Shown piece by piece: positions 41,336 to 58,901 of a stretch of 64,000 bases of DNA (positions within the stretch are counted from its first letter, which is position 1; each line of letters begins with the position of its first letter). Below the pieces are notes generated by a model. That model had not been told where the DNA came from. It worked only from the letters and a program-made list of their open reading frames with translations, and did not search any database. A program made the position numbers and the translations under genes. The stretch comes from Amycolatopsis acidiphila. Lineage in GTDB: Bacteria; Actinomycetota; Actinomycetes; Mycobacteriales; Pseudonocardiaceae. The stretch is taken from assembly GCF_021391495.1 (NCBI RefSeq), contig NZ_CP090063.1:3844001-3908000 (forward strand), in the 5' to 3' direction.

Positions 41336-41360
41336 GGACTCCCGCCGAGGGAGGACACGG

Positions 41361-42131
41361 ATGGCGCAGGCGCCACGGGCAGCACGACCGATCGAGCCGG
41401 TTCTGGTGGTGATCCCGACTTACAACGAGCGTGAGAACCTCACGCCCATCCTGCGCAGGCTGCACGAAAGCCTGCCGTCGGTGCACGCGCTCGTGGTCGA
41501 CGACGGCAGCCCCGACGGCACCGGCGAGCTGGCCGACGAGCTCGCCGCCGAGGACAAGCGCGTCCACGTGATGCACCGCAGCGAGAAGGCCGGCCTGGGG
41601 GCCGCCTACATCGCCGGGTTCCGCTGGGGGCTGGAACGCGACTACGCCACCATCGTCGAGATGGACGCCGACGGCTCGCACGCGCCCGAGGACCTGCCGC
41701 GCATGCTCGACGCGCTCGAAGACGCCGACCTCGTGCTCGGCTCGCGCTACGTCCCCGGCGGCAGCGTCGTCAACTGGCCCAAGCGGCGCGAGATCCTCTC
41801 CCGCGGCGCGAACCTGTACTCCCGCCTCGCCCTCGGCGGCAAGATCACCGAGTACACCTCCGGCTTCCGGGCCTACCGGCGCGCGGTACTCGAGAAGCTG
41901 GAGCTGGACGAGATCGCCTCGACCGGCTACTGCTTCCAGATCGACCTGGCCTGGCGCACCCTGCGGGCCGGGTTCGAGGTCGTCGAGGTGCCCATCACCT
42001 TCACCGAGCGCGAGATCGGCGAGTCGAAGATGAGCGGCTCGATCATCCGCGAGGCCATGCTCCGCGTCGGCATCTGGGGCACCCAGCACCGGCTCGCCCA
42101 GCTGCGCCGCCTGGCGCAGCGCCGCGGCTAG
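41361..42131 (+). CDS. ppm: Polyprenol-phosphate mannose synthase (GT2)
   Basis: A 256-residue family 2 glycosyltransferase: [13 protein letters not shown] at residues ~15-27, [30 protein letters not shown], the DxD-like [26 protein letters not shown] and the C-terminal [18 protein letters not shown]. These are the hallmarks of dolichol/polyprenol-phosphate mannose synthases. It transfers mannose from GDP-mannose to a polyprenyl phosphate for lipoglycan and protein mannosylation. A GAGGGAGGA ribosome site precedes the ATG. It is followed by a strong terminator. Confidence 0.93.
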
Positions 42132-42146
42132 CCACGCGGTCCGAAG

Positions 42147-42193
42147 ACACGAGCAGGCCCCCGCGGCGGGAGGACGCGGGGGCCTGCTCGTGT
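42147..42193. terminator. Bidirectional terminator between ppm and rbpA
   Basis: A perfect 19-bp stem (42147-42165 with 42175-42193) with a 9-nt loop lies between the convergent ppm and rbpA genes. It can serve both directions: ppm ends 15 bp before it and rbpA ends 20 bp after it. It is one of the two strongest hairpins in the window. Confidence 0.88.
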
Positions 42194-42213
42194 TTCGTGG
42201 TGGTACCGGCCAG

Positions 42214-42561
42214 CTACGCCGAGCGGCTCGTCCGGCGGCCCTTGAGCTCGGCCAGCCGTTCGTTCAGCAGATCCTCCAGCTCCGGGATCGAGCGCCGCTC
42301 CAGCAGCATGTCCCAGTGCGTGCGCGGAGGCTTGACCTTCTTCTGCTCGAGCTGCCCGCCGTTGACGATCTCGGACTCGCTGCCGTGCAGGCGACACTCC
42401 CACACGGACGGGATCTCCGCGTCGTCGGAGAAGGGCACCTCGAACTCGTGGTTCTTCGGGCACGCGTACCGCACCGTGCGGCGCGGGGCGAGATCGTGGT
42501 TCCGGTCGGTCTCGTAGCTGACCGCTCCCAGCCGGCTTCCACGGAGTACACGGTCGGCCAT
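42214..42561 (-). CDS. rbpA: RNA polymerase-binding protein RbpA
   Basis: A 115-residue protein matching RbpA throughout: MADRVLRGSRLGAVSYETDR, the zinc/core-fold segment TVRYACPKNHEFEVPFSDDAEIPSVWECRLHG, the basic linker QKKVKPPRTHWDMLLERR and the sigma-interacting helix SIPELEDLLNERLAEL. It binds RNA polymerase and the principal sigma factor, stabilising open complexes and lowering rifampicin sensitivity. A sigma-R-type promoter lies upstream. Confidence 0.97.
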   Translation of the reverse strand: MADRVLRGSRLGAVSYETDRNHDLAPRRTVRYACPKNHEFEVPFSDDAEIPSVWECRLHGSESEIVNGGQLEQKKVKPPRTHWDMLLERRSIPELEDLLNERLAELKGRRTSRSA

Positions 42562-42620
42562 GATGACGTCCTTTCAGTCGGCTCCGGTGGTTAAGAGCCA
42601 GAGTGATGCTCACCCTATGC

Positions 42621-42647
42621 AACGATCCCCGTCTTCCGGGAATTCCC
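42621..42647 (-). promoter_or_regulatory. Sigma-R-type promoter of rbpA
   Basis: Reading the minus strand, GGGAAT (42647-42642) is followed after exactly 18 nt by GTT (42623-42621), the consensus of the thiol-stress sigma factor SigR. It lies about 60 bp upstream of the rbpA ATG. In Streptomyces rbpA is known to have a SigR promoter, so this conserved site is strong evidence for disulfide-stress induction here too. A TAGGGT box overlaps it and could serve the housekeeping sigma factor. Confidence 0.8.
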
Positions 42648-42810
42648 GGAAGAACATGTCGTCGCTCACGATGAGCGGGCTCACCCCTCGGCAACAGCTT
42701 CCACCAGAGGGACACCGTTCGCGCCGCTAAGTGACGCGGTTTGGCCGTTCTTTCTGCGATTATCCCCCAGTCGGGCTACCGGATGGCGGCAAAAGAGGAA
42801 GCCAGGACCC

Positions 42811-43554
42811 TCAGCTGAGGCGTAGCTGTCCCCACTGCCCCGCACCCGGTCCGAGGTCGCCGAGACGGAAGTGCCGTCGGCACAGTACTTGGTAACGCAA
42901 AGTAGTGAGTTCGAGCTGCGTGCGTGATGAGGTTGCACCTTCAACCACGTCCGCGACCACCACCGTGTCCCCTTCACGCAGCACTTCGCCGTCCCGCACC
43001 CGCGCGTTGAACCGCCCCGGCGCACCACACCAGCACAGCACGTCCACCTGCACCGGCTGCAGCTCGTCGGCCAGTTCGAACAGCCGGCGCGCACCGGGGA
43101 ACAGGCTGCTCCGGAAGTCGGTGGCGATGCCGAAGCAGTAGACGTCGATCTGGACCTCGTCGGCGAGCTCGGCCAGCTGCTCGACCTGGGCGGGGGAGAG
43201 GAACTGCGCCTCGTCGACCACCAGGTAGTCCACGTGCTGCCCGGCGACCCACTGCTGGCGGATCAGCTGCCGCAGGTCCGTGTCGGCCCCGACCTCGACG
43301 GCCTTACGCGTGATGCCGATCCGGCTGGTGATCTGCGGCGCGCCCGAGCGGTCGTGACGCACCAGCAGCAGCCCCCGCCGGCCCTGCCGCGCGTGGTTGT
43401 GGTCGATCTGCAGCGCCAGCGTCGACTTCCCGCAGTCCATCGGTCCGTAGCAGAACCTGAGCAGGCCCCGGACCGGCGGACGCCGCGCGCCGGCACCCGG
43501 TACGGCGGACAGCGCGTCGGTGGGATCGAGGGCTTCGTCGGAAAGCGAGGTCAC
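42811..43554 (-). CDS. tdk: Thymidine kinase-like protein
   Basis: A ~247-residue type II thymidine kinase from the GTG at 43554. P-loop FCYGPMDCGKSTLAL near residue 40, a VRHDRSGAPQI segment, the Walker B/DEAQF motif YLVVDEAQFLSPAQVEQL near 118, and a zinc site built from CWCGAPG and CRRHF. The P-loop Cys replaces the usual Ser/Gly. It would phosphorylate thymidine in the salvage pathway. The ~35-residue N-terminal extension is uncertain; a later start is possible. It is divergent from the Rpf-like gene. Confidence 0.83.
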   Translation of the reverse strand: MTSLSDEALDPTDALSAVPGAGARRPPVRGLLRFCYGPMDCGKSTLALQIDHNHARQGRRGLLLVRHDRSGAPQITSRIGITRKAVEVGADTDLRQLIRQQWVAGQHVDYLVVDEAQFLSPAQVEQLAELADEVQIDVYCFGIATDFRSSLFPGARRLFELADELQPVQVDVLCWCGAPGRFNARVRDGEVLREGDTVVVADVVEGATSSRTQLELTTLRYQVLCRRHFRLGDLGPGAGQWGQLRLS

Positions 43555-43744
43555 GAAGCTCGACCCTATCTCTCCCTTGATCGGGTGAATTGAGCGGAGA
43601 TCCGCCCACCGCAAGCCGATGACAGGGGAGTGCCGCCCAGCCGGCACGTTTCTCCGCGTCCACCGGCCGACCCGGCACCGTGCGGCGTGTCGCTCAGAAC
43701 CCCGAAAGCTGTGACATGTGATTCTGGTGGGCTCGATGTGAAAG

Positions 43745-43773
43745 TTGTGGCTGCTGGGGCGAAAACCTACTGT
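43745..43773 (+). promoter_or_regulatory. Promoter of the Rpf-like gene (leaderless)
   Basis: TTGTGG (43745-43750), a 17-nt spacer and TACTGT (43768-43773) form a good housekeeping promoter whose minus-10 lies 6 nt before the ATG at 43780, so the message is probably leaderless. Confidence 0.6.
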
Positions 43774-43779
43774 GCTCGC

Positions 43780-44448
43780 ATGGTGAAGCACCGGTTCAGC
43801 CGCGCGGGCGCTCGTGTCCTGCTGATCGCGCTGGTCGCGGCGACGGTGCAACTGCTCACCAGCACCGCCGCCTCGGCGGACCCCGCCGCCTCGACCTGGC
43901 TGAAGCTGCGCATGTGCGAGTCCAGCAACCGGTACACCGTCAACACCGGCAACGGGTACTACGGCGCCTACCAGTTCGACCTGCCCACCTGGCGCAGCGT
44001 CGGCGGCCAGGGGAGACCCGACCAGGCCAGCCCCGCCGAGCAGGACTACCGCGCGCTGTACCTGTACCGGATGCGCGGCTGGCAGCCGTGGGAGTGCGCG
44101 AGCATGCTCAGCCTCCGCAACGACGCCGACGCCCGCAGCAAGCGCGTCCCGAGCTACGCCGAGTCCGCCTACATCGGCGGCGGCCCCGCGCCCGCACCCG
44201 CACCGGGCCCCGCGACCAAGCCCGCCTGGCCCGGCGTCGTCTACGCCTACGGCGACTGCGCCGCGGCGCTCAAGACCTTCCAGCTGCGGATGAACGCCTT
44301 CGGCTACGGCTTCGACGGCACCGGCTGCTACTACCAGAAGACCCAGCAGGCCGTCCTCGACCTGCAGCGCGCCAACGGGATCAACGACTCCGGCAGGCTC
44401 GGCCCCAAGACCTGGAACGCGGCCTGGGACGGCAAGCCGCCGCGCTGA
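43780..44448 (+). CDS. Resuscitation-promoting factor-like secreted transglycosylase
   Basis: A 222-residue exported protein. Signal peptide (VLLIALVAATVQLLTSTAASA, cleavage near residue 30), then a transglycosylase-like Rpf domain with the catalytic glutamate in LKLRMCESSNRY and GYYGAYQFDLPTWRSVGG. A proline/alanine linker (~133-145) leads to a C-terminal peptidoglycan-binding-like domain (KTQQAVLDLQRANGIND near 190). It should cleave peptidoglycan glycan strands and promote regrowth or germination. Cysteines in both domains suggest disulfides. Confidence 0.88.
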   Translation: MVKHRFSRAGARVLLIALVAATVQLLTSTAASADPAASTWLKLRMCESSNRYTVNTGNGYYGAYQFDLPTWRSVGGQGRPDQASPAEQDYRALYLYRMRGWQPWECASMLSLRNDADARSKRVPSYAESAYIGGGPAPAPAPGPATKPAWPGVVYAYGDCAAALKTFQLRMNAFGYGFDGTGCYYQKTQQAVLDLQRANGINDSGRLGPKTWNAAWDGKPPR

Positions 44449-44451
44449 CGC

Positions 44452-45228
44452 TCAGACCCACTCGCCCCGTTCGCGCAGCACCTCGCGCAGCAGGTCCGGC
44501 CGGTCGGTGACGATGCCGTGCACGCCGAGATCCAGCAGCCGCCGCATCTCGGCCTGGTCGTTGATCGTCCAGGTGTGCACCTCGACGCCCGCCTTCGCGG
44601 CGGTGCGCAGGAACGAAGGGTCGACGATCCGCAGTCGGGCCTGCCGGACCGGCACCTGGGCCATGGCGCCCCGGCACAGGAACCCCAGGCGCAGCCACGG
44701 CGTCCAGCCGTTGGCCCACAGCACCGCGACCGAGCGCGGGCCCATCGAGGTCAGCAGCTTCGGCCCGGCGAGCTTGCGGATGCGGGCGAGCCGGTTGTCC
44801 GAGAACGCCGCGGCCGCGACCCGCTCGTAGGCGCCGAGGCGCTCGATCACCTTCAGGAAGGGCACGACCGCGTTGTTGCTCTTCACGTCGATGTTGAAGC
44901 GCACCTCGGGCAGCTCCTCGAGCACGTCCTCCAGCCGCGCCACCGGCTCGCGCCCGCGGATCTTCGCCCGCTTGACCACCGGCCAGGGCTGCGCGCCGAT
45001 CGCGCCGTGGGCGTCGGTGGTGCGGTCGAGCACCGCGTCGTGGTGCACGACGACGACGCCGTCGGACGTGGCGTGCACGTCGGTCTCGACGTAGTGGAAC
45101 CCTTCCGCGGCCGCCCGGCGGAACGACGACAGCGAGTTCTCCATGCCCTCGAGCTCGTCCAGGTGCCACCCGCGGTGGGCGAACGCTCGGGGAAAGGCGC
45201 CGGCGAGGTACGGGTGAAGGCTTTGCAC
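44452..45228 (-). CDS. Glycerophosphodiester phosphodiesterase family protein
   Basis: A ~258-residue TIM-barrel GDPD from a GTG start. Visible: FAHRGWHLDELEGMENSLSSF with the first catalytic His and Glu, FHYVETDVHATSDGVVVVHHDAVLDRTT carrying the ExD metal pair and second His, and late strands HTWTINDQAEMRRLLDLGVHGIVTDRPDLL. It would hydrolyse glycerophosphodiesters to glycerol-3-phosphate and an alcohol. No signal peptide is seen. It ends 3 bp from the convergent Rpf-like gene. Confidence 0.9.
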   Translation of the reverse strand: MQSLHPYLAGAFPRAFAHRGWHLDELEGMENSLSSFRRAAAEGFHYVETDVHATSDGVVVVHHDAVLDRTTDAHGAIGAQPWPVVKRAKIRGREPVARLEDVLEELPEVRFNIDVKSNNAVVPFLKVIERLGAYERVAAAAFSDNRLARIRKLAGPKLLTSMGPRSVAVLWANGWTPWLRLGFLCRGAMAQVPVRQARLRIVDPSFLRTAAKAGVEVHTWTINDQAEMRRLLDLGVHGIVTDRPDLLREVLRERGEWV

Positions 45229-45281
45229 CAGACCAGTGTGCGGTATCGGCGTGGCCACGTCGTGAGCGAACGGTGGCCGGT

Positions 45282-45287
45282 TAGGGT
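45282..45287 (+). promoter_or_regulatory. Minus-10 box for leaderless 45.3-kb gene
   Basis: TAGGGT 7 nt before the GTG at 45295, a near-textbook actinobacterial leaderless arrangement. Confidence 0.55.
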
Positions 45288-45294
45288 CTGGCAC

Positions 45295-45657
45295 GTGAGC
45301 GAGACGGTCGACCTCCTGGCGGGGATTCCACGCAACCTCGCGCCGCAGCACTGCGGCTGGTGCGGACGGCGGCTCGAGCAGGCGGCGGCGAAGGGCCGGC
45401 GGCGCCGGTACTGCGGGCAGTCGTGCCGGCAGCGCGCCTACGAGCGGCGCACGGCCGTGCAGCGCAGCGGCCTGCCGGAGGACGCCGTGGTGCTCTCCGA
45501 CGCCGAGCTCACGGCCCTGCAGGACCGGCTGTTCCAGCTCCGCTGCGCCGCGGAGGACGTCGTGACGGCCGCCGACGACGGCGCGGGGTCCGACGAGCTG
45601 CGCCGGATGGCGCTGGAGCTGGCCCACTCGGCGCGCGACCTCGAACGGCTGCGCTGA
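45295..45657 (+). CDS. Small zinc-finger hypothetical protein
   Basis: A ~120-residue protein. The N-terminal half has a treble-clef-like zinc site (HCGWCGRRL, then RYCGQSCRQRAYERRT) with a very basic stretch, suggesting nucleic-acid binding. The C-terminal half is an acidic helix pair (LSDAELTALQDRLFQLRCAAEDVV). I know no assigned function for this type. It stops 1 bp before the convergent NTF2-like gene. Confidence 0.75.
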   Translation: MSETVDLLAGIPRNLAPQHCGWCGRRLEQAAAKGRRRRYCGQSCRQRAYERRTAVQRSGLPEDAVVLSDAELTALQDRLFQLRCAAEDVVTAADDGAGSDELRRMALELAHSARDLERLR

Positions 45658-45658
45658 G

Positions 45659-46087
45659 TCATCGCCTCAGGTGGTGGCTCACGTCGCCGACGAGATCGAC
45701 ACGAACCTCCCGCTCGGTGAACCGCCAGCTGCCGTCGTGGCGCTCGAAGCCGTCGGCGTAGCGGCCGCCGGCGACGGGTCGCAGCGGTAGCTCCGGCAGG
45801 GCTTGCAGGACGGTGAAGTACGCGCGTGCGGTCGCCGTCCCGGCTCGCTCGTCGACCTCGATCTGGACGTTGGTCGTGACGTGCTTGGTTCGCGGCGTCC
45901 CGTCGTCGTACACGATGACCGTCTCGCGGAGCATCCGCGCGATCGCGTCGCCACCGCGGACCGACCCGGTGCCACCGACGAAGACAGCATGCGCCAGCAA
46001 CTCGCCGACACCGGCGAAGTCACCGTCGTCGACCAGCTCCGCATACCTCGCGATCAGGTTCTCGATCGCCCTCTCGGCTGTTGTCAT
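45659..46087 (-). CDS. SnoaL/NTF2-like protein
   Basis: A 142-residue cone-fold (ketosteroid isomerase-like) protein: TAERAIENLIARYAELVDDGDFAGVGELLA is the typical opening helix pair, with HVTTNVQIEVDERAGTATARAYFTVLQ and SWRFTEREVRVDLVG as later strands. Such proteins are isomerases, cyclases or ligand binders. A GGGAGGG ribosome site precedes the ATG. It is divergent from an AraC regulator only 27 bp away, which probably controls it. Confidence 0.82.
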   Translation of the reverse strand: MTTAERAIENLIARYAELVDDGDFAGVGELLAHAVFVGGTGSVRGGDAIARMLRETVIVYDDGTPRTKHVTTNVQIEVDERAGTATARAYFTVLQALPELPLRPVAGGRYADGFERHDGSWRFTEREVRVDLVGDVSHHLRR

Positions 46088-46114
46088 CGCACCCTCCCCG
46101 GTCGGCGTTATGGC

Positions 46115-46570
46115 ATGATTTCGCAGGTGACCAGCAGTCCCGCCGCCGCCCAGTACCTGCGTGACCTCGCGCGGCTGCGTCGCGTCCGCGACCGGATCGA
46201 CCGGGAGTACGCGCGTCCCCTCGACGTCGAGGCGCTCGCCCGCGGCGCGCACATGTCGGCCGGGCACCTCAGCCGCGAGTTCAAGCGCGCGTACGGCGAG
46301 TCGCCGTATTCCTACCTGATGACCCGGCGCATCGAGCGTGCGATGGCGCTGCTGCGCCGGGGCGACCTCAGCGTCACCGAGGTCTGCTTCGCGGTCGGCT
46401 GCTCGTCGCTGGGCACCTTCAGCACCCGCTTCACCGAGCTGGTCGGCGTGCCGCCCAGCACCTACCGGCGCGAGACAACCCGCGTCACGGCGGGGATACC
46501 GTCCTGCGTCTCGAAACAGGTGACCAGACCGGTCAGGAATCGAGAAGCGTCGGCCCGGAGCCGGATCTAA
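46115..46570 (+). CDS. AraC-family regulator, DNA-binding domain only
   Basis: A 151-residue protein consisting almost entirely of the double helix-turn-helix of AraC proteins: PLDVEALARGAHMSAGHLSREFKRAYGESPYSYLMTRRIERA and LSVTEVCFAVGCSSLGTFSTRFTELVGVPPSTYRR. There is no N-terminal sensor domain, as in MarA/SoxS-type activators. It is divergent from the SnoaL-like gene and 10 bp upstream of a VOC gene, which it may also regulate. Confidence 0.88.
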   Translation: MISQVTSSPAAAQYLRDLARLRRVRDRIDREYARPLDVEALARGAHMSAGHLSREFKRAYGESPYSYLMTRRIERAMALLRRGDLSVTEVCFAVGCSSLGTFSTRFTELVGVPPSTYRRETTRVTAGIPSCVSKQVTRPVRNREASARSRI

Positions 46571-46580
46571 CGTAACCGCC

Positions 46581-46991
46581 ATGGACATCACCATTCACAC
46601 GAGCGTTCTCCCACACGACGACCCCGAGGCCTCCCTGGGCTTCTACCGCGACACCCTCGGCTTCGAGGTCCGCACCGACGTCGGCAGCGGCAAGATGCGC
46701 TGGATCACGGTCGGCCCCGTCGGCCAGCCCGACACGTCCATCCTCCTGGCGCCGCCTGCCGTCGACCCCGGGGTCACCGAGGACGAGCGCCGCACCATCG
46801 CCGAGATGATGGCCAAGGGCACCTACGGCTGGATCCTGCTGGCCACCAAAGACCTCGACGGCACCTTCGCGAAGGTGGAGGCCGGCGACGCCGAAGTCGT
46901 CCAGGAGCCGACCGAGCAGCCCTACGGCATCCGCGACTGTGCCTTCCGCGACCCCGCCGGCAACCTGGTCCGCATCCAGCAGCTGCGCTGA
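46581..46991 (+). CDS. VOC-superfamily (glyoxalase-like) protein
   Basis: A 136-residue single-module VOC protein: TIHTSVLPHDDPEASLGFYRDTLGFEVRTDV opens the first beta-alpha-beta unit and YGIRDCAFRDPAGNLVRIQQ closes the second, with the metal His and Glu positions partly visible. It could be a lyase, a dioxygenase or an antibiotic-binding protein. It starts 10 bp after the AraC gene and 41 bp before the UvrA-like gene, likely one transcript. Confidence 0.86.
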   Translation: MDITIHTSVLPHDDPEASLGFYRDTLGFEVRTDVGSGKMRWITVGPVGQPDTSILLAPPAVDPGVTEDERRTIAEMMAKGTYGWILLATKDLDGTFAKVEAGDAEVVQEPTEQPYGIRDCAFRDPAGNLVRIQQLR

Positions 46992-47032
46992 CACAGACCG
47001 CAACGGCGCCCCGCCCGACAGATGGAGAGACG

Positions 47033-49423
<2,391 letters not shown>

Positions 49424-49441: not shown

Positions 49442-50053
49442 ACGTGGCCGACCCCATGCACTTCGAGGCCCGCGCCGAGATCTATGAACGGGCGCGGCCA
49501 CCGTACCCGGAGGCACTCTGGGACCGCCTGCGCGAGCCGGCGTGCGAGTGGTCGAGCTGGGCGCGGGCGCGGTGGCAGGCGACCGAGCACCTTCTCGGCG
49601 CCGGGGCGGCCGTCACAGCGATCGAGCCGGGCCCGTCGCTCGCGGAGCGCTTGAGGAGACGATGTGCGAGCGCGCTCGTGCATGGCGGCCACTTCGCGGT
49701 CTGGCGCACGGCGTTCGGGGACCCGGGTCGGAGAAGCCGGGTTCCGGGACCGGGTGGACGCGATCGTCGCTCTGCGTCGTGGCGAAGCCGGCCGAGGCGT
49801 GCCCGGTGAGTTCAGCACCGAGCAATGGGCGCGGCGGTTGGCTTCGAGCGGCGAGTTCGCGGTCGTCCATGTCGAGCATCGACCTCGACGCGAACCAGAT
49901 CCACGACTTGTTCAGCACCTTCAGCGACTGGACCGCGGATGAGGTCGACGCCGCGCGGCAGCGGCCGTTCGTCAGCTGGGCGGGACTGTGACCGAGCACT
50001 ACGTCACGCCGCTGATCGTCCTGGAGCGCGGGCCGGAAAGGCGCATCCGTTGA
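49442..50053 (+). pseudogene. SAM-dependent methyltransferase pseudogene (several frameshifts)
   Basis: Fragments of a class I methyltransferase occur in order but in different frames: MHFEARAEIYERARPPYPEALWDRLRE; VRVVELGAGA (SAM motif I); WQATEHLLGAGAAVTAIEPGPSLAERL; then DAIVALRRGEAGRG-like and DLDANQIHDLFSTFSDWTADEVDAA; and finally VTEHYVTPLIVLERG ending at TGA 50051-50053. At least three frame changes are needed, and a middle part seems missing, so it is non-functional. It ends exactly where the dif-like site begins. Confidence 0.78.
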
Positions 50054-50080
50054 GTGCCGATAATGTACATTATGTTAAGT
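50053..50080 (+). other. dif: dif-like XerC/XerD recombination site (chromosome dimer resolution)
   Basis: Inner sequence CCGATAA - TGTACA - TTATGTTAAGT (50057-50080) fits the actinobacterial dif consensus as I recall it at 23 of 24 positions (one C-to-T change in the XerD arm). The outermost four bases of the XerC arm (AGTG, 50053-50056) diverge. The near-palindromic AT-rich block stands out in this GC-rich region. dif marks the replication terminus, where XerC/XerD and FtsK resolve chromosome dimers. A Xer-using mobile element or plasmid could also carry such a site. Confidence 0.75.
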
Positions 50081-50837
50081 AAGGGTCGGGGGGCATGCTC
50101 CACGCCGCGCGCCGGTGGAGTTCGAATCCTGCCTTCGCCAGGTTGGTGGCGCTCACCGAACCGGGCCTGGCGCTCGCGACCGCCAGGACACAACCGTCCT
50201 CCGCGGCCAGCCTCAGGCGGTGTAGCAGCAGCACGGACTGCGCGCCGCGACCGCGATGTTCCCGCAGTGTCGCCGCCCCGCCGAGGACGGCTACCACACC
50301 ATGCTTTGTCATGCCTGCCACGGCGATCGGCGCGGCATCGTGCAAGACGGCGAAGCGCCGCACGTCCGGATGCCGGTGCTCCGCGGCGATGAACGCGCCG
50401 ACCTCACCGTCCACCTCGTACCCGGCGAGCAAGACGTCCAGAAACCTCGCGTCATCGGTGACAGCCACCGGATCTCCGGCAGGCGGCGGATTTCCGATCA
50501 GTTGCCGGATCGCCAGCATGCGGTCGGCTGCCCGCACGAAGCCCGCCGACGACAGCCTCTCCCCTGTTTCGTCGAGCTCCTCGGAAACCAGCACGGTCGG
50601 CGCGGCGCCCTGCCACGCCGAGGCACGCACGATGTCGGTCGCCGCGGCCACCGTCTGCGGCGTCACTCCAGACAGGGTGGACAGAAAGCTCAAGCCGGGC
50701 GCGGAAACCACGGCCGCCAGCACGCCGACCCGTTCCCACGTCTCGAACCTGCCGGGCAGACCAGCGTCCCGGGCCGCTGCGAAAGCCAGTTCCGCGCGGC
50801 GGTGCAGCGCTCGCTCCGCCTCGGCCACCGGCGTCAC
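50070..50837 (-). CDS. GNAT-like acetyltransferase
   Basis: A 255-residue protein from a GTG that overlaps the stop of the HemK-like gene (GTGA), so the two are coupled. The C-terminal half shows the GNAT acetyl-CoA loop in LGGAATLREHRGRGAQSVLLLHRL (R-x-x-G-x-G/A) near residue 200 and a preceding IAVAGMTKHGVVAVL strand; the N-terminal half is a degenerate GNAT repeat. Its last codons, including a rare TTA leucine, and its TAA stop lie inside the dif-like sequence, suggesting the original 3' end was replaced. Substrate unknown. Confidence 0.82.
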   Translation of the reverse strand: MTPVAEAERALHRRAELAFAAARDAGLPGRFETWERVGVLAAVVSAPGLSFLSTLSGVTPQTVAAATDIVRASAWQGAAPTVLVSEELDETGERLSSAGFVRAADRMLAIRQLIGNPPPAGDPVAVTDDARFLDVLLAGYEVDGEVGAFIAAEHRHPDVRRFAVLHDAAPIAVAGMTKHGVVAVLGGAATLREHRGRGAQSVLLLHRLRLAAEDGCVLAVASARPGSVSATNLAKAGFELHRRAAWSMPPDPYLT

Positions 50838-51595
50838 CGGACCTCGGCGGGCCGCTCACCACGCACGACCGTAGCGCCGATTTCGTCGCACCGGGCTACC
50901 AAGGGCACCAATCCGGCACCCGCGAGCACAGCTGCCGCCTGAGGTGCTTGCCGCTCGCTCGCCTCGACGAACAGGTAACCGCCCGGAGCGAGCCATTCCA
51001 CGGCCGCACCGGCGACGCGGCGCAGCACGTCCAAGCCGTCGGCACCGCCATCGAGCGCGACGAGTGGTTCGTGCAGCCGCGCCTCCGGCGGCATCGTGCC
51101 GATCTTCTCGCTCGGCACGTACGGCACGTTCGCGAGGAGGACGTGCACGCGGCCGCGAAGATCGGCAGGCAACGCGGCGAACAGGTCGCCCTCGAACACC
51201 TCCCCTGGCACATTGCGCCGGGCGCATCGCACGGCCGCTGGTTCGACGTCGGCGGCATACAACTCGACGGGCACCGACGCGGCGAGCGCGGCACCGAGCG
51301 CGCCGGAGCCACAGCACAGGTCGACCACGACCGCGCCGGGGACGGTGACCGAAACAGCCTGGCGCACCAGGAACTCCGTGCGCCGGCGCGGCACGAACAC
51401 GCCGGGCTCGACCGCGATCCGCAACCCGCAGAACTCGGCCCAGCCGAGCACGTGCTCCAGTGGCTCCCCCGCGACGCGGCGGGCCACCAGGGCGGACAAC
51501 TGACCGGGATCCGCCGCGGCGGCGACGAGCAGCGCGGCTTCGTCCTCGGCGAAGACACAGCCTGCGCGGCGCAGGCTGGTGACGATGTCGGACAT
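50834..51595 (-). CDS. HemK/PrmC-like methyltransferase
   Basis: A 253-residue protein with the HemK layout: an N-terminal helical part with VARRVAGEPLEHVLGWAEFCGL, then VEPGVFVPRRRTEFLV, SAM motif I VVVDLCCGSGALGAALA near residue 90, VELYAADVEPAAVRCA and the target-amide motif as LLANVPYVPSEKIG. The usual NPPY is NVPY here, as in the side group annotated as putative protein glutamine methyltransferases. True PrmC methylates release factors; this paralogue may act on another ribosome-linked target. Its ribosome site is sequestered in a hairpin behind a possible leader peptide. Confidence 0.85.
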   Translation of the reverse strand: MSDIVTSLRRAGCVFAEDEAALLVAAAADPGQLSALVARRVAGEPLEHVLGWAEFCGLRIAVEPGVFVPRRRTEFLVRQAVSVTVPGAVVVDLCCGSGALGAALAASVPVELYAADVEPAAVRCARRNVPGEVFEGDLFAALPADLRGRVHVLLANVPYVPSEKIGTMPPEARLHEPLVALDGGADGLDVLRRVAGAAVEWLAPGGYLFVEASERQAPQAAAVLAGAGLVPLVARCDEIGATVVRGERPAEVR

Positions 51596-51779: not shown

Positions 51780-52466
51780 GTGGCAGTGCTGAAACACGGA
51801 CCCGTCGTCCCGCAGGTGGAGAGCCTGCTGCGGGACCGCCTGCGCGACGGCTACTGGACGCCTGGTGAGCGCCTGCCGAACGAGGTGCAGCTCGCCGCCG
51901 AGATCGGAGTCGGCAGGTCGTCGGTGCGCGAGGCCGTCCGGCTGCTGGCGCGCGACGGGCTGCTCGACGTGCGGCACGGCTCGGGCACGTTCGTCGCCGA
52001 ACCCCCGCCGGACTCCCCCGGCGTGCACCGGCTGCTGCGCCGGGCCCGGCTGCTGGAGGTCTACGAGGTGCGGCGCGCCCTGGAGGTCGAGGCCGCGCGG
52101 CTGGCCGCCCAGCGGGTGCGGCCCGAGGACATCGGGCGCGTGCGGGCCGGGCTGTGCAAACGCCAGGAGCTGCTGGGCGCCGAGCCTGCCGAGTTCGTCG
52201 ACGCCGACCTGGCCTTCCACCGGTCCATCGTGGAGCTCTCGGGCAACGCGCTCCTGCTCGACCTGTTCGCGGCCGCGGAACCGGTGCTGCACGAGGCGAT
52301 CACGGAGATGTTCCGGCACGAGCGGGAACTGCCCGACGTCTCCGACGCGCACGCGGACCTGCTCGACGCGCTCGAACGCGGGGACGCCGACGCGGCGGTC
52401 GCCGCCACCGTCACCCACCTGGAAGCCATTGTCTCCGAGATCCGAACGGCGGTGTCCGGCCAGTGA
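51780..52466 (+). CDS. GntR/FadR-family transcriptional regulator
   Basis: A 228-residue FCD-type GntR protein: HTH residues ~10-75 (YWTPGERLPNEVQLAAEIGVGRSSVREAVRLLARDGLLDVRHGSGTFV) and an FCD domain with DADLAFHRSIVELSGN and SDAHADLLDALERGDADAA carrying the Asp/His metal ligands. Its stop overlaps the start of an ABC ATPase gene (GTGA), so it probably regulates or co-expresses with it. The effector is probably an organic or amino acid. Confidence 0.9.
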   Translation: MAVLKHGPVVPQVESLLRDRLRDGYWTPGERLPNEVQLAAEIGVGRSSVREAVRLLARDGLLDVRHGSGTFVAEPPPDSPGVHRLLRRARLLEVYEVRRALEVEAARLAAQRVRPEDIGRVRAGLCKRQELLGAEPAEFVDADLAFHRSIVELSGNALLLDLFAAAEPVLHEAITEMFRHERELPDVSDAHADLLDALERGDADAAVAATVTHLEAIVSEIRTAVSGQ

Positions 52467-53245
52467 ACGACGTGCTCGTCGCCGACGAGGTGGACCTGGT
52501 CCGCGACGGCAACTACCTGCTGAGCTCGGTCTCGATGACCGTCCGCGAGGGCGAGCACTGGGCGCTGCTCGGCGGCAACGGCGCGGGCAAGAGCACGCTG
52601 CTGAGCCTGCTGGGCGCGCGCGTGCACCCGACGCACGGCACGGTCGACGTGCTGGGGCACCGGCTCGGGCGGGTGGACATGCGCCGGCTGCGGGCCGAGA
52701 TCGGGCACATCGACCCGCGGCATCCGCTGCGCACCCCGCTGCGAGTGCGTGAGGTCGTGCTGACCGGGCTGACCAACACCACCGAGTTCGTGCCGCGGTG
52801 GTCGCCCACCGCCGAGCAGGTCGCCCAGGCCGACGAGCTGATCGGCATGCTCGGCCTGACCGGCCGGCGGGACGCGCTGTGGCCCGTGCTGTCGCAGGGC
52901 GAGCGCGGCCGGGCGCTCATCGCGCGGGCGCTGATGCCGCAGCCGCGGTTGCTGCTGCTCGACGAGCCCGCCACCGGCCTCGACCTCGCCGCCCGCGAGC
53001 AGCTGCTGACGAGCCTGGACGCGCTGCGGCGGCGGCACCCGGCCCTGGCGACCGTGCTGGTGACCCACCATCTGGAGGAGCTGCCGGAGAGCACGACGCA
53101 CGCCCTGCTGCTGCGAGAGGGGCGGGCGCTGGCGGCGGGCCCGGTGGCGGACGTGCTCACCAGCGACCAGGTCACCAAGTGCTTCGACCACCCCGTGCGC
53201 ATCACCCGCGAGGACGGTCGCTGGGCCGCGCGCGCCGATCGCTGA
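52463..53245 (+). CDS. Orphan ABC transporter ATPase
   Basis: A 260-residue ATPase: Walker A LLGGNGAGKSTLLSLLGARVHP near residue 38, signature SQGERGRALIARALMPQP near 155, Walker B RLLLLDEPATGLDLAA, and the switch His in VLVTHHLEELPE. ModF/YlmA-like ATPases with this LSQGE signature often lack a permease partner, and none is nearby. It may act in iron or molybdate supply or in translation. It overlaps the GntR gene by 4 bp and the convergent hydrolase by 44 bp. Confidence 0.88.
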   Translation: MNDVLVADEVDLVRDGNYLLSSVSMTVREGEHWALLGGNGAGKSTLLSLLGARVHPTHGTVDVLGHRLGRVDMRRLRAEIGHIDPRHPLRTPLRVREVVLTGLTNTTEFVPRWSPTAEQVAQADELIGMLGLTGRRDALWPVLSQGERGRALIARALMPQPRLLLLDEPATGLDLAAREQLLTSLDALRRRHPALATVLVTHHLEELPESTTHALLLREGRALAAGPVADVLTSDQVTKCFDHPVRITREDGRWAARADR

Positions 53246-53894
53246 GCAGGACCTTCAGCAGCTCGGCCGTCCCGTCACGCAGCACGTTGTGGCGGGTCTC
53301 CAGCTCGTGCACGGTCCACTGTGGATCGCCCCGGAGTCGCTGGTAGGTCGGGGTGAACGGTGACTCGCCGTCCCAGAGTTTCGCGTACACGTAGTCGCGG
53401 CGGTAGCGGCTCAGGTCGCCGCTGAGCCGGATGCGCTGCAGCAGCGTCGCCAGCGGATGCGGGGTCGCCCGCGCGTCGAAGAACGGCAGCGGCGGCATTT
53501 CGTACCCGTTCTCCCCCACGCTCAGATACCACTCGCGCTGCTCGTCGTTCGTCAGCGTCCAGCACGAGTCGCCGTCATCCGGGACGAACGCGTCGACGTA
53601 GACGAGGGAGTCGACGCGCTCGGGCGCGCGGTCGGCGACACCGCTGATCACCATGCCCCCGTAGCTGTGCCCCACGAGTACGGCGTCGTCGATCTGTTCG
53701 TACTCCAGGACGGCCAGCACGTCGCGGACGTGGGTGTCGAGGTTGATGCCCGCACACGCCGGATGCCGCCGCTCCCCCAGGCCGGTGAGGGTGAGCGGGT
53801 AGGCCCGGTGCCCGGCCCGGCGGAGGTCTTCGGCGAGCGGTTCGTACCACCAGCCGCCGTGGCAGGCGCCGGGGACGAGGACGAAGGTGGCCAT
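53202..53894 (-). CDS. Alpha/beta hydrolase
   Basis: A 230-residue alpha/beta hydrolase of the plant-esterase-like (MES/hydroxynitrile lyase) branch: FVLVPGACHGGWWYEPLAEDLRRAGH opens it, AVLVGHSYGGMVI holds the nucleophile Ser near residue 85, VYVDAFVPDDG follows, and the catalytic His lies toward the C-terminus (VHELETRHN). It would cleave an ester or amide. It overlaps the convergent ABC gene and lies 1 bp upstream of the NTF2-like gene's end, so the two minus-strand genes are likely one operon. Confidence 0.88.
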   Translation of the reverse strand: MATFVLVPGACHGGWWYEPLAEDLRRAGHRAYPLTLTGLGERRHPACAGINLDTHVRDVLAVLEYEQIDDAVLVGHSYGGMVISGVADRAPERVDSLVYVDAFVPDDGDSCWTLTNDEQREWYLSVGENGYEMPPLPFFDARATPHPLATLLQRIRLSGDLSRYRRDYVYAKLWDGESPFTPTYQRLRGDPQWTVHELETRHNVLRDGTAELLKVLLSDRRARPSDRPRG

Positions 53895-53895
53895 T

Positions 53896-54243
53896 TCAGG
53901 CCCCCGTGGTCTCGGGCCGGTCGATGACGCGCAGCCAGCTGCCGTCGGGCTGACGCCGGGCGAGCTGGACGCGGCCGCCGGTGCCGTCGGCCGGGCGAGT
54001 GGCGGTCAAGGCCAGGTCGCCGTGGCGCAGGGTGGGCAGGGGGTCTTCGAGCTGAAACCGCGGCACCTGCCGCAGCATCTGCTCGAAGACGCCGAGGATC
54101 GCGTCGCGGCCGACGGTCTGCGAGCCGGGCGGATACGCGAGGACGGCGTCGGGCTCGTACAGCTCGGCGAGGCCTTTCGCGTCGCGGGCGTTGGCCCGCT
54201 CGACGAAGAGGCGGGCGAGGTCTTCGGGTTCGTATGCGCTCAT
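53896..54243 (-). CDS. NTF2-like (SnoaL/DUF4440) protein
   Basis: A 115-residue cone-fold protein: PEDLARLFVERANARDAKGLAELYEPDAVLAYPPG, then GRDAILGVFEQML, and strands LALTATRPADG and GRVQLARRQPDGSWLRVIDRP. Family members are small isomerases, hydrolases or binding proteins. It is divergent from a LysR regulator 70 bp away, a classic LysR target arrangement, and co-directional with the hydrolase. Confidence 0.82.
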   Translation of the reverse strand: MSAYEPEDLARLFVERANARDAKGLAELYEPDAVLAYPPGSQTVGRDAILGVFEQMLRQVPRFQLEDPLPTLRHGDLALTATRPADGTGGRVQLARRQPDGSWLRVIDRPETTGA

Positions 54244-54313
54244 GGGTCCAGGTTGCGCCGGGTCGCGCCAGAAGCCCAAGAGCTGGTTCTGCTGGTTGTT
54301 AGAATCGTTGGTT
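54244..54313. promoter_or_regulatory. LysR/NTF2 divergent control region
   Basis: The 70-bp gap contains an AT-rich repeat, TTGTTAGAATCGTTGGTTATG overlapping the LysR start, where two GTT/TTG half-sites could serve as a LysR T-N11-A type site. Weak evidence; location is the main argument. Confidence 0.35.
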
Positions 54314-55192
54314 ATGGAACTGCGTCAGCTCGAGTACTTCGTGACGGTCGCCGAGGAGGGCAGCTTCACCCGGGCGGCGGAGAAGGTGCACGTGGCGCAG
54401 CCCGGGGTGAGCGCGCAGATCCGGCGCCTGGAGCGGGAGCTCGGCCAGGAACTGCTGGACCGCTCGGGGCGGACGGTGCGGCTGACCGACGTCGGCGCCG
54501 CGGTACTGCCCTACGCCCGGGCCGCGCTCGCCGCGGTGGCCGGCGCGCGGCTAGCGGTGGACGAGCTGACCGGGCTGCTGCGCGGGCGCGTGGCGGTGGG
54601 CATGGTGACCTCGCACAACGTCGATCTGCCCGGACTCCTGGCGCGGTTCCACCAGGACCATCCGGCCGTGGAGATCACGCTCGCCGAGGGCAACTCCGAC
54701 GATTTGGTCGAGTCGCTGCGTGACGGGCGGCTCGATGGCGCGATCGTCTCCCTCGGCGCGACTCCCCCGCCCGACCTGGACCATCTCGTCGTGACCGACG
54801 AGGCGATCGCGGCCGCCGTCGCGGTGGACCACGAGCTGGCGGGGCGCCCGGAGATCCCGCTCGGGCAGTTGCGGGAGCACCCGCTGATCAGCCTGCCGCC
54901 GGGCACCGGGATCCGGTCGCATCTGGACGCCGCGTGCGCGCGGGCCGGGTTCGCGCCGAAGATCGCGTTCGAGGCGAGTCAGCCGGTGATGCTCGCCCAG
55001 CTCGCCGGGCGGGGGCTGGGGGTGGCGATCCTGCCCGACTCGCTCGCGAGAAACCGCGCCGACCTGCATCCGCTGACGATCGTGCGGCCCGGCCTACGCG
55101 GGCAGCTCGTCTTCGCGTGGCGGTCCGGCGGGCCCGTCAGCCCCGCTGCCCGCGCTCTCCTCGGCCGCGCGCGCCGCGAGTTCGGCGCGTAG
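54314..55192 (+). CDS. LysR-family transcriptional regulator
   Basis: A 292-residue LysR protein: HTH MELRQLEYFVTVAEEGSFTRAAEKVHVAQPGVSAQIRRLERELG (residues 1-45), linker helix, and a type 2 periplasmic-binding effector domain (GRVAVGMVTSH near 95; LAGRGLGVAILPDS near 235). It probably controls the divergent NTF2-hydrolase operon. Its last 99 bp overlap the convergent coiled-coil gene. Confidence 0.92.
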   Translation: MELRQLEYFVTVAEEGSFTRAAEKVHVAQPGVSAQIRRLERELGQELLDRSGRTVRLTDVGAAVLPYARAALAAVAGARLAVDELTGLLRGRVAVGMVTSHNVDLPGLLARFHQDHPAVEITLAEGNSDDLVESLRDGRLDGAIVSLGATPPPDLDHLVVTDEAIAAAVAVDHELAGRPEIPLGQLREHPLISLPPGTGIRSHLDAACARAGFAPKIAFEASQPVMLAQLAGRGLGVAILPDSLARNRADLHPLTIVRPGLRGQLVFAWRSGGPVSPAARALLGRARREFGA

Positions 55193-56128
55193 TTCCCGCA
55201 GCTCGTCCCGGCTGGCGGCGAGTGCGGTGTCGAGGCTGTCGGCGCGGGCTTCGGCGACCCGCCGGGCGGTGTGCTCCTCGGCGACGCGGGCCAGGGCCCG
55301 CTCGCGTTCGGTGCGCTGCAGGTCGGCGGAAGCGCGGGCATCGGCGGTCTCCTGGCGGGCGTGCTCGACGGAGCGTTCGGCGGCGCTCAGCTGGGCCCGG
55401 GCGGCGGCGAGGCGTTCGGCGAGCACGGCCAGTTCGGTGTTGCGTTCGCGCAGCTCGGCGCGGGCGCTCTCGAGGTCCTGGGCCAGCTCCGCACGCGCGG
55501 CACGCAGGTCGTCGAGCTGGGCGCGGGTGGCTCGCAGGCTCTCGGCGTGATCGTCGCGGGCCTGCTCGGCGGCGTGCCGTGCGGCTTCGGCCGCTCCCTT
55601 TGCGCGCTCGTGCTCGGCGACCTTCGCCCAGGCTTCCCGTGTCTCCCGGTCCGCGGTGGCGACGGCCTTCTCGGCGAGCTTCTCGGCTTCGACGCGGGTG
55701 GCGCGGTCATCTCGGGACTGGACGAGGGCCTGGTCGCGGGAGCGTTCTGCCTGGTCTGCGCGCTTTGCCGCCTCGTCGGCTTCGGCGCGGGCAGCCCTGG
55801 CGTCCTCCTCGGCCTGACGGACCTGGGCGAGCGCGCCCGTCTCGGCCTCGTCGAGTCGTCGCCGTAGTTCGGTGATCGCGTCCAGCAGCGGCTGCGTGAC
55901 CGGGCCGAGCGCCTCGGTGACCCGCCGCATCTCGATGAGCGGGTCCACCGTGATGGCGGTCTGCGCTGCGCGTCGCGTACGGGAGGCCGCGTCGGCGTGG
56001 GACTTGCAGCAGTAGGACGACGGACGGCCGCCCTTTCGCCGTCCGTGCTCGTCCACCGACGGCGGCGGCAGCGGATTGTCACAGCCGTCGAGGGCGCAGA
56101 TCTGGGTCTCGACCAGGGCGTTTTCCAT
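55094..56128 (-). CDS. Zinc-finger/coiled-coil protein (KfrA-like architecture)
   Basis: A ~344-residue protein. The N-terminal ~50 residues hold a C-x4-C ... CC-x2-H zinc motif (QICALDGCDNPLPPP, then GRPSSYCCKSHADAAS) with basic residues. From ~75 to ~325 the sequence is almost continuous heptad coiled coil rich in Ala, Arg and Glu. Plasmid KfrA and related partition or nucleoid-binding proteins have this DNA-binding head plus coiled-coil tail; the zinc head differs. It is divergent from a tyrosine recombinase 94 bp away, and the two probably work together or are co-regulated. Confidence 0.78.
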   Translation of the reverse strand: MENALVETQICALDGCDNPLPPPSVDEHGRRKGGRPSSYCCKSHADAASRTRRAAQTAITVDPLIEMRRVTEALGPVTQPLLDAITELRRRLDEAETGALAQVRQAEEDARAARAEADEAAKRADQAERSRDQALVQSRDDRATRVEAEKLAEKAVATADRETREAWAKVAEHERAKGAAEAARHAAEQARDDHAESLRATRAQLDDLRAARAELAQDLESARAELRERNTELAVLAERLAAARAQLSAAERSVEHARQETADARASADLQRTERERALARVAEEHTARRVAEARADSLDTALAASRDELRELRAELAARAAEESAGSGADGPAGPPREDELPA

Positions 56129-56135
56129 GCCTCTA

Positions 56136-56230
56136 GTTTCGCGTACGCGATAGTGAAACCAGTTGAGCGACACGCGTTACTGCTCAACATCGGCGAGATA
56201 GTGATCCGTGATAATCACAGTTATGACGGA
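56136..56230. promoter_or_regulatory. Divergent control region of recombinase and coiled-coil genes
   Basis: The gap contains the perfect palindrome TCGCGTACGCGA and, close to the recombinase start, GTGAT CC GTGAT A ATCAC, whose last part is a perfect inverted repeat. These AT/GC-balanced repeats look like operators for one or both proteins. The GATAAT-5-TTATG layout at 56210-56225 also mimics the inner arms of dif. Confidence 0.45.
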
Positions 56231-57317
56231 GCTTGCCCTGCGGGGAGACTCGGGAGGCCTCGCGGAGGCTGTGGAACTGTTGCCCGCTCTCCCGCCTGCC
56301 GACCCCGGGGACCGGTACGCGATTCGTCACGTGACGATGCTGTGGCTGAAGGCCGACAAGAGCGAGCACACCCAGCGCGCGTACTACGCCGACCTCGCGG
56401 CCTGGCTTTCGTGGTGCCGGCGGACGGGGCTGGACCCGCTGCAGGCGCGGCGGGCGGACGTGGACGCGTGGAAGCTGACCCTGACGGTCACCGGCCGCGA
56501 CGGCGTCCCGCGCCCGGCGGCCCCGTCGACGGTCGCGCGCACGCTGGCCGGGGTGTCGAGCTGGTACCGGTATCTGCAGTCCAACGACGTGACCGAGCGG
56601 AATCCGGTGGCGGCCGCAGGGCGCCCGAAGCGGGCCCGGACCTCTCCCCTGCCCGCGCTCGACGAGAAGGCGACGGCGAAGCTGCTCGACCACGTGGAGG
56701 ACCGGGCGCGCCGCAACGGGACGGAAGCGTCCTGGCGGGATGCCGCCCTGATCGCGCTGCTGTTCTACACCGGGCTGCGGGTCTCCGGCGTCACCGGCGC
56801 GACGATCGCCGACCTCGACAGCGATGCCGGGCACAGCATCCTGCGCTACACCGCCAAGGGCGGGCAGCGGGACCTCGTGCCGCTCGTAGCACCCGCCCTG
56901 CGCCCGCTGCGGCAGTACCTCACTGTGCGGGCCGAGCGGGAACAGCGAGACCTCGACGGGCTCGCGGGGCCGCTGCTCGCGACGACGCCGCACGCCTACG
57001 ACCGGGCGAAGCCGGGCGGGAAGCCGTTGCGGCAGCGGGATGTCTGGCAGACCCTGCGCAAGCTCGCGGCCGAGGCGGACATCCCCGGCGCGGCGAGCAT
57101 CAGCCCGCACACCGCCCGCCGCACCACCGGCACCCTGCTGCTGGCGCACGACGTGCCGGTGCAGAAGGTGCAGGACCTGCTGGGGCACGCCGACATCCGC
57201 ACGACGCGGGACCACTACGACGCGCATCGCCACAAGCTCGACAGCTCGCCGGTGCACACGCTGGCGCAGATCCTGGCGGACCGCCGCGGCGACCAGGGCC
57301 GGGCAGCAGGGACGTGA
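56223..57317 (+). CDS. Tyrosine recombinase/integrase
   Basis: A 364-residue tyrosine recombinase with a SAM-like N-terminal arm-core domain (KADKSEHTQRAYYADLAAWLSWC near 40-60). The catalytic set is complete: Arg in FYTGLRVSG, Lys in YTAKGGQRDLVP, H296/R299 in SPHTARR, H322 in LLGHADIRTT, and nucleophile Tyr332 in RDHYDAHRH. ATG 56223 is preferred; a GTG at 56208 also fits but lies within operator repeats. It resembles stand-alone XerC/D-like recombinases more than phage integrases. It lies 6 kb from the dif-like site. Confidence 0.9.
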   Translation: MTELALRGDSGGLAEAVELLPALPPADPGDRYAIRHVTMLWLKADKSEHTQRAYYADLAAWLSWCRRTGLDPLQARRADVDAWKLTLTVTGRDGVPRPAAPSTVARTLAGVSSWYRYLQSNDVTERNPVAAAGRPKRARTSPLPALDEKATAKLLDHVEDRARRNGTEASWRDAALIALLFYTGLRVSGVTGATIADLDSDAGHSILRYTAKGGQRDLVPLVAPALRPLRQYLTVRAEREQRDLDGLAGPLLATTPHAYDRAKPGGKPLRQRDVWQTLRKLAAEADIPGAASISPHTARRTTGTLLLAHDVPVQKVQDLLGHADIRTTRDHYDAHRHKLDSSPVHTLAQILADRRGDQGRAAGT

Positions 57318-57340
57318 GCGGCACCGGCGGCGAAAAGTTG

Positions 57341-57375
57341 CACTGCCACCGGCCAGGATGTGAATTACACTGCCA
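57341..57375 (+). repeat. CACTGCCA direct repeat after the recombinase
   Basis: CACTGCCA occurs at 57341-57348 and 57368-57375, 27 bp apart start to start, just past the recombinase stop and before the STAS gene, in an unusually AT-rich patch (GTGAATTACAC between). Possible recombinase arm or core sites, or part of a promoter. Weak evidence. Confidence 0.35.
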
Positions 57376-57452
57376 AGAACACGGTTAAGCCCGTAGCCGT
57401 CACTGAAGCCGTCTGATCCACCTCGTTCCCACGGGTGGAAGTTGGAGGCGCC

Positions 57453-57869
57453 GTGACCGCGGCAGATGCTTTCCAGGAGCAGCAGACGAGGTTGACCCTG
57501 CCCCGGCAGCGGCCTTCCGGTGAATCCGCCGAGCACGGCTTCGCGCCGCCGCTAAGGCTGCGCGTGCGTCGCCCGAGACCCCGCACCGCGGTGGTGCTCG
57601 TCCGCGGCGAGGTGGACGTGCTCACCGCACCCCGGCTCACCGAGCTGCTCGTGGCCAGGCTGCGCGGCACTTTGCGCACGCTGGTCGTCGATCTGTCCGA
57701 AGTGGACTTCCTCGGCGCCGCCGGGCTGTCGTCGCTGCTCTACGCGGATCTGCTCGCCCGGCACCGCGGCGTCACGATGCGGGTGGTGACCGGCGACAAC
57801 CGCTGGGCCATCCGGCCGCTGACCGTCACCGGGATCGGCGACCGGCTCAACCTGGACAGGACCCGCTGA
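57453..57869 (+). CDS. STAS-domain anti-sigma factor antagonist-like protein
   Basis: A 138-residue protein with a ~35-residue variable N-terminus and a STAS domain: TAVVLVRGEVDVLTAPRLTELLVARLRG and LVVDLSEVDFLGAAGLSSLLYADLLA. In classical antagonists the serine phosphorylated by the anti-sigma kinase sits in a D-S-S/T-G block; here that block reads GAAG, so the phosphosite is absent. It may be constitutively active or act by another mechanism. GTG 57453 follows a GGAGG ribosome site. Confidence 0.85.
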   Translation: MTAADAFQEQQTRLTLPRQRPSGESAEHGFAPPLRLRVRRPRPRTAVVLVRGEVDVLTAPRLTELLVARLRGTLRTLVVDLSEVDFLGAAGLSSLLYADLLARHRGVTMRVVTGDNRWAIRPLTVTGIGDRLNLDRTR

Positions 57870-58709: not shown

Positions 58710-58876
58710 GATCGGGACAACCCGGTGCTCCCGACGACTATTCCGTCGATCTCGACCAGCCACTCCCCGCAGGCGCACCGGCGGTAGCCGACCCTGCCCT
58801 CGGCGGCGCGGTGGACCGAACCGGGCAGGAGCTCGGCGAGGGGGCAGCCGCAGTGCGGGCATCGCGAGTCCGTCAT
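58706..58876 (-). CDS. Small zinc-ribbon protein
   Basis: A 56-residue protein with two CxxC/CxC knuckles: DSRCPHCGCPLAEL and GYRRCACGEWLVEID. A zinc ribbon of this size may be an accessory to an enzyme or a nucleic-acid contact. Its stop overlaps the patatin start, so it is coupled to it. It is divergent from a CGNR-type protein gene. Confidence 0.72.
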   Translation of the reverse strand: MTDSRCPHCGCPLAELLPGSVHRAAEGRVGYRRCACGEWLVEIDGIVVGSTGLSRS

Positions 58877-58901
58877 GACGCCAGCATGGTGTAATGGTTC
58901 A

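Follow-up and report, generated by a model that had tools for sequence, protein, structure and literature searches.

A very probable chromosomal dif site in Amycolatopsis acidiphila and reversed strand asymmetry beside dif in related genera

The 28 bp at positions 50053-50080 of a 64-kb stretch of the Amycolatopsis acidiphila genome (the window, bases 3,844,001-3,908,000 of a single contig of 8,183,622 bp) are, as judged from sequence, very probably the chromosomal dif of this organism, and as such an ordinary one. In nine of ten relatives from the same family, both flanks of dif (2-6 kb away) are C-rich and A-rich on the dif-pointing strand, that is, the strand with its 3' end toward dif, and the sign of this asymmetry is the reverse of the normal leading-strand skew. 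We tentatively propose that in this family DNA is repeatedly synthesised outward from dif over a zone of about 10 kb to either side, the reversed asymmetry being its possible trace.

The dif site and its place on the chromosome

A sequence-only reading of the window had singled out these 28 bp as a dif candidate that would place the replication terminus there. Direct reading of the window confirmed the sequence at 50053-50080 on the forward strand, with the 11-6-11 layout of a XerC arm, a centre and a XerD arm (Table 1); on the chromosome the site lies at 3,894,053-3,894,080. The 21-bp core ATAATGTACATTATGTTAAGT has one match at ≤3 mismatches in the window, and the search for further copies in the replicon that had been recommended found one only in the 8,183,622-bp contig at the same stringency (reversed control, 0).

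Among 150 genomes of the family, A. acidiphila included, 88 carry a dif match at ≤1 mismatch, once each and with no control hits. A looser dif pattern applied to the other 62 genomes gave, by hand count, 47 with a match at ≤1 mismatch, 3 with a best match at 2 and 6 with a best match at 3, and 6 with no match even to this loose pattern; because the reversed control gave hits in 4 of the 62 at loose stringency, the 3-mismatch hits carry little weight. When the window was read side by side with 30 other loci, that of Amycolatopsis pithecellobii among them, the XerC arm varied in its first 3-4 bases, and so the divergence of the outer XerC-arm bases that the sequence-only reading had pointed out turns out to be normal. 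Agreement in the core and the XerD arm is built in, since the search pattern included both; the CG immediately preceding ATAAT, which the pattern left free, is present in 31/31 loci, the window counted. The centre reads TGTACA, TCTACA or TGCACA in most of the relatives listed, and beyond dif the flanking sequence varies across the 31 loci.

By eye, 5 of the 28 positions differ from what we take to be the letters of E. coli dif, an exact match to which was located in K-12. Prediction of dif has been extended to many phyla, including 66 actinobacterial genomes (Kono et al. 2011, PMC3025954). With the chromosomal dif/XerCD system as described in the available part of that source, the A. acidiphila site shares the length of 28 bp, the 11-6-11 layout, the single copy, the location at the terminus and the XerD and FtsK genes, together with a candidate XerC gene; the only differences are the centre TGTACA and the outer part of the XerC arm, which is variable.

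The chromosome encodes XerD (346.6 bits against an equivalog cut-off of 329.6) and a XerC-like protein whose best family is XerC at 316.2 bits, 19 below the cut-off of 335.15. FtsK-gamma has one match in the chromosome, above its cut-off, and the motor and gamma parts of that protein align to the solved FtsK structures 2iut and 2ius. It is the combination of sequence, position and the XerD and XerC-like genes that makes dif very likely. By analogy with the known family, XerC and XerD would bind the two arms of dif and swap strands in the 6-bp centre, by which chromosome dimers would be split; FtsK would run toward dif along DNA in which GGGGGAG points at dif, bring the two chromosome copies together and switch on XerD. 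Elsewhere on the chromosome, 13 of 24 tyrosine recombinase matches form a dense cluster at 7.61-7.93 Mb, in which some pairs of recombinases lie 25 kb apart and have equal scores.

The C-terminal domain of dnaA lies at 1315-1515 (about 1.3 kb) of the same contig, and the origin was therefore placed near base 1. As the replicon carries dnaA, it is the chromosome and no plasmid, which, like the single copy, speaks for dif. Measured from dnaA, dif lies at 47.6% of the circle, and the exact antipode is about 198 kb further on. Skew and motifs over the chromosome were measured in the window and in a sample of 120 further stretches, each of 20 kb. In bins of about 1 Mb, mean GC skew runs from +0.013 to +0.023 in the left arm and from -0.011 to -0.017 in the right arm; the best single step falls at 3.818-3.854 Mb, with near-equal fits up to 4.09 Mb. 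This step is compatible with the position of dif, but broad. The skew check suggested by the sequence-only reading thus yields a whole-chromosome step near dif (3.82-4.09 Mb), whereas GC skew within the 64-kb window alone has no clean switch and the terminus is not visible in it.

Table 1. Features of the window at and around dif (window coordinates; skews refer to the dif-pointing strand)
Feature	Position	Strand	Remarks
Left flank, weak asymmetry zone	40066..48065		2-10 kb from dif; GC skew -0.047, AT skew +0.053
Transglycosylase-like gene	43630..44448	+	With the adjoining GDPD gene, conserved dif neighbour, XerC side
Glycerophosphodiester phosphodiesterase (GDPD) gene	44452..45627	-	Conserved dif neighbour, XerC side
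Last + strand GGGGGAG before dif	49135..49141	+	16/16 window copies left of dif on +
dif XerC-binding arm, predicted	50053..50063	+	AGTGCCGATAA; outer 3-4 bases differ among relatives
dif 6-bp central region	50064..50069	+	TGTACA
dif XerD-binding arm, predicted	50070..50080	+	TTATGTTAAGT
GNAT-like acetyltransferase ORF	50070..50837	-	TAA stop (50072-50070, -) within the dif XerD arm
First - strand GGGGGAG after dif	51464..51470	-	5/5 window copies right of dif on -
Right flank, weak asymmetry zone	52066..60065		2-10 kb from dif; GC skew -0.024, AT skew +0.045
Xer-like tyrosine recombinase gene	56208..57317	+	6 kb from dif, XerD side

Polarity of GGGGGAG and the neighbourhood of dif

All 6- to 8-mers were counted on the leading strand of the sampled DNA, with the arms split at dif, and GGGGGAG was singled out as polar, with 337 copies on the leading strand and 39 on the other. 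The choice of this motif relied on the split at dif; the later fit of the switch point was free of it. From the 376 sampled copies, the changepoint was placed between 3,893,135 and 3,895,464, an interval of 2.3 kb that contains dif (support interval 3,887,192-3,895,464): the motif is on the + strand in 207 of 226 sampled copies left of the switch and in 20 of 150 right of it. Over the contiguous 84 kb around dif, all 24 copies of GGGGGAG point toward dif. The search for FtsK-orienting motifs around 50 kb that had been advised therefore gave a polarity flip bracketing dif within 2.3 kb. As for the terminus that had been claimed at this spot, dif is the junction of polar-motif polarity, which does not imply that the forks meet exactly at dif.

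Toward the terminus, the share of GGGGGAG on the + strand of the left arm rises from 33/40 to 68/70 and its density from 0.133 to 0.230 per kb, while in the right arm the share on the - strand rises from 11/21 to 66/68 and the density from 0.062 to 0.200 per kb. The architecture-imparting sequences (AIS) (T/C)GGGGGAG of Corynebacterium are reportedly to be credited to Hendrickson and Lawrence, in 2006. In the sampled DNA both the bias and the abundance of GGGGGAG grow toward the terminus in both arms, in agreement with the definition of AIS by leading-strand bias and abundance growing toward the terminus, as given in the accessible part of PMC5993296; of that definition, our test covered these two properties. 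GGGGGAG is not new as a motif: (T/C)GGGGGAG served to locate dif in Corynebacterium aurimucosum, according to the portion available of PMC2830990. The two cases have in common the core motif, its leading-strand bias and its use in placing dif; here, by comparison with that portion, the switch is resolved to 2.3 kb and ten relatives from the same family are examined as well. The polarity of GGGGGAG is far above that of the E. coli KOPS GGGNAGGG and the B. subtilis SRS GAGAAGGG, which are weakly polar in the sampled DNA (215 to 148 and 47 to 31, respectively), and this polarity makes it a candidate for a sequence read by FtsK.

Within 20 kb of dif in the ten relatives, 117 of 126 copies of GGGGGAG point toward dif, against 20 of 75 for a reversed control motif. 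The flip interval includes dif in eight of the ten and is off dif by 0.6-1.2 kb in G086 and by 2.1-4.8 kb in G117; agreement with a single flip is 12 of 17 copies in G023 and 6 of 8 in G117.

The window, Amycolatopsis pithecellobii and five of the ten relatives (G064, G085, G115, G076 and G073) all have a GDPD gene to the XerC side of dif; since this neighbour is kept, dif seems to be inherited in place. One exact 29-bp match and protein identity near 80% also make a placement in or near Amycolatopsis probable from sequence. It is very improbable that an IMEX-type element using the host Xer enzymes left the site behind as a dif-like attachment site. Such an origin would suit the tyrosine recombinase gene 6 kb off (56208-57317), but an integrated element would leave two copies and one was found at ≤3 mismatches, so that the second copy expected of an IMEX or phage att site is lacking; the single copy in all 88 genomes matching at ≤1 mismatch, the inclusion of dif in the polarity flip interval in 8/10 relatives and the retained GDPD neighbour also speak against it. 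A chance AT-rich near-palindrome, for which the shortness of dif alone could be invoked, has a negligible probability, as none of 100 dinucleotide shuffles of the window contained a core match at ≤3 mismatches and the site is conserved across the family.

Two further observations concern the surroundings of dif. Related recombinases are encoded on its XerD side in G117 (about 7 kb away, 38% identity) and in G023 (about 15 kb, 30%). Just to the right of dif in the window (about 50113-50139), GGTGGAGTTCGAATCCTGCCTTCGCCA resembles the 3' end of a tRNA. ARAGORN found no tRNA in the 64-kb window, and Rfam gave no match at gathering scores and, below them, only two unrelated matches nearby; as the sequence also lies inside the GNAT-like ORF, its reading as a tRNA or attachment site was dropped.

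Reversed strand asymmetry flanking dif

The ten relatives stand for ten genera, one of them that of the window, and were picked by contig position before their skew was viewed. On the dif-pointing strand of their 20 flanks (2-6 kb from dif), GC skew is negative in 18 and AT skew positive in 19; G073 accounts for both flanks whose GC skew is positive. Further away, at 15-20 kb, GC skew is negative in 7 of 20 flanks. The zone is clear in eight of the ten relatives, weak in G064, the genus-mate, and absent in G073, and its best centre lies no further than 2.25 kb from dif in every relative except G073. Measured against 590 background windows of 4 kb from the A. acidiphila chromosome, which for the relatives serve as a cross-genome yardstick, 14 of the 20 flanks are below the lowest value (-0.110) and 16 below the 1% point. 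The strongest 2-kb bin has a GC skew of -0.41 (G059).

In the eight strong genomes (all ten but G064 and G073, picked after the profiles had been seen), mean GC skew on the dif-pointing strand starts near 0 at dif, falls to about -0.21 between 2 and 5 kb and has returned to -0.04 at 12 kb, and mean AT skew is its mirror image, at about +0.18; in this average the asymmetry has faded by about 12 kb. Closer in, at 500-1480 bp from dif, 3-kb loci (28 with the window's own, two loci of less than 3000 bases being excluded) have negative values on both sides in 12 cases and positive values on both sides in 8, which agrees with the dip beside dif and alone lends no support to the zone.

Asymmetry in A. 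acidiphila itself has the same sign as in the relatives and is weak (Table 1; background GC skew +0.015, sd 0.028). The pair mean of GC skew in its flanks is reached by 0.4% of random pairs, that of AT skew alone by 7.2% and the two together by 0.17%, all of these percentages being nominal and referring to one hypothesis taken from the relatives; ranked among 4-kb windows, the flanks at 2-6 kb fall in the bottom 3.7% and 2.9%. In E. coli, represented by K-12, there is no two-sided zone: within 6 kb of dif the skew is slightly negative on one side and positive on the other. In G115, 15-20 kb to the left of dif, the dif-pointing strand has a GC skew of +0.30 and an AT skew of -0.26, opposite to the zone, and strong skew of that opposite sign can thus arise without dif.

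No description of a two-sided reversed-skew zone at dif was found in open-access titles and the starts of abstracts among the matches listed, and the available parts of PMC3317982 and PMC3469384 contain no account of such a zone.

Possible origins of the asymmetry

Strand asymmetry in mitochondrial DNA is attributed to deamination of exposed single strands, the exposed strand being rich in G+T, with a gradient. The zone near dif has the same G+T-rich strand and a gradient, and differs in being bacterial and two-sided. A mechanism of outward synthesis may lie behind it. Synthesis running outward from dif could begin by over-replication after fork fusion or, alternatively, by recombination-dependent restart at breaks formed where the septum closes. 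The strand directed away from dif would then stay single-stranded, and its C and A would be deaminated. The poverty of that strand in C and A fits deamination, because it is the strand that would be single-stranded if synthesis runs outward. The resulting reversed asymmetry, up to -0.41 in 2-kb bins, would bend protein composition and would depend on the lineage. In E. coli, recG and other mutants over-replicate the terminus, and this replication can enter both arms, as reported in PMC10331603. The E. coli case, as described there, resembles ours in that synthesis born in the terminus at fusing forks enters the arms in the direction opposite to normal; there it occurs in mutants, whereas here an evolutionary trace near dif in wild genomes is concerned.

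A less likely explanation takes the composition of the zone to be the work of selection and not of mutation, for instance because it would give FtsK a directional cue in the vicinity of dif. The dif activity zone of E. coli extends about 10 kb either side of dif and is not precisely defined by KOPS, according to the accessible part of PMC2680272. That the asymmetry zone has the same size, about 10 kb either side, and is centred near dif agrees with selection, although the activity zone was defined genetically in that source and ours is an asymmetry of base composition. The sign of the asymmetry, however, is opposite to that of the G-rich polar motif embedded in the zone, and G073 has dif without the zone. 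The bias also reaches fourfold sites in both gene directions, intergenic gaps and amino acids, and because of this the zone looks like the product of broad mutation pressure. Among fourfold sites lying 1.5-6 kb from dif, the eight strong genomes have C at 68% and G at 23% on the dif-pointing strand if the gene faces dif, and C at 64% and G at 24% if it faces away; further out (15-20 kb) the C/G values are 47/43 and 37/54, respectively. In gaps of 40-500 bp between predicted genes, GC skew is -0.136 (s.e. 0.022) close to dif, compared with -0.034 (s.e. 0.019) at a distance. DNA near dif that is outside every ORF of at least 100 aa has no skew (GC -0.027, AT -0.067; 609 bases), a result that counts against the zone and comes from a tiny set biased toward stop codons. 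In the three strongest genomes, the products of genes facing dif are enriched in Thr, His and Pro, and those of genes facing away in Val, Phe and Trp. Genes were predicted by our own rule based on GC at codon positions, which covers 61-77% of the DNA, so that the set of genes is an approximate one.

If transcription ran outward from dif and exposed the non-template strand, the sign would be the same, but genes facing dif are as biased as genes facing away, and we consider this origin improbable. Gene by gene, fourfold skew near dif in the eight strong genomes is negative in 28/28 genes facing dif and 20/20 facing away (medians -0.55 and -0.48); over all ten relatives (1.5-6 kb) it is negative in 33/34 and 21/27, respectively, the exceptions being in G073 and G064. 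Gene direction does not account for the asymmetry. There is equally little to recommend the idea that ordinary forks overrun dif into the other arm. Although dif need not be the point at which forks meet, mixed fork directions give only about +0.015 to -0.015, as estimated from the A. acidiphila arms, and the relatives' flanks at 2-6 kb reach -0.35; a reversal by overrun cannot exceed the normal skew, for which that of the A. acidiphila arms was used.

A firm dif fixes the boundary between the arms of the A. acidiphila chromosome, and GGGGGAG becomes a testable candidate for FtsK orientation in the family Pseudonocardiaceae. Over-replication of the terminus is described for E. coli mutants; if the zone reflects outward synthesis, such over-replication would take place regularly in actinomycetes in the wild, and its extent would be readable from sequence and comparable with the dif activity zone.
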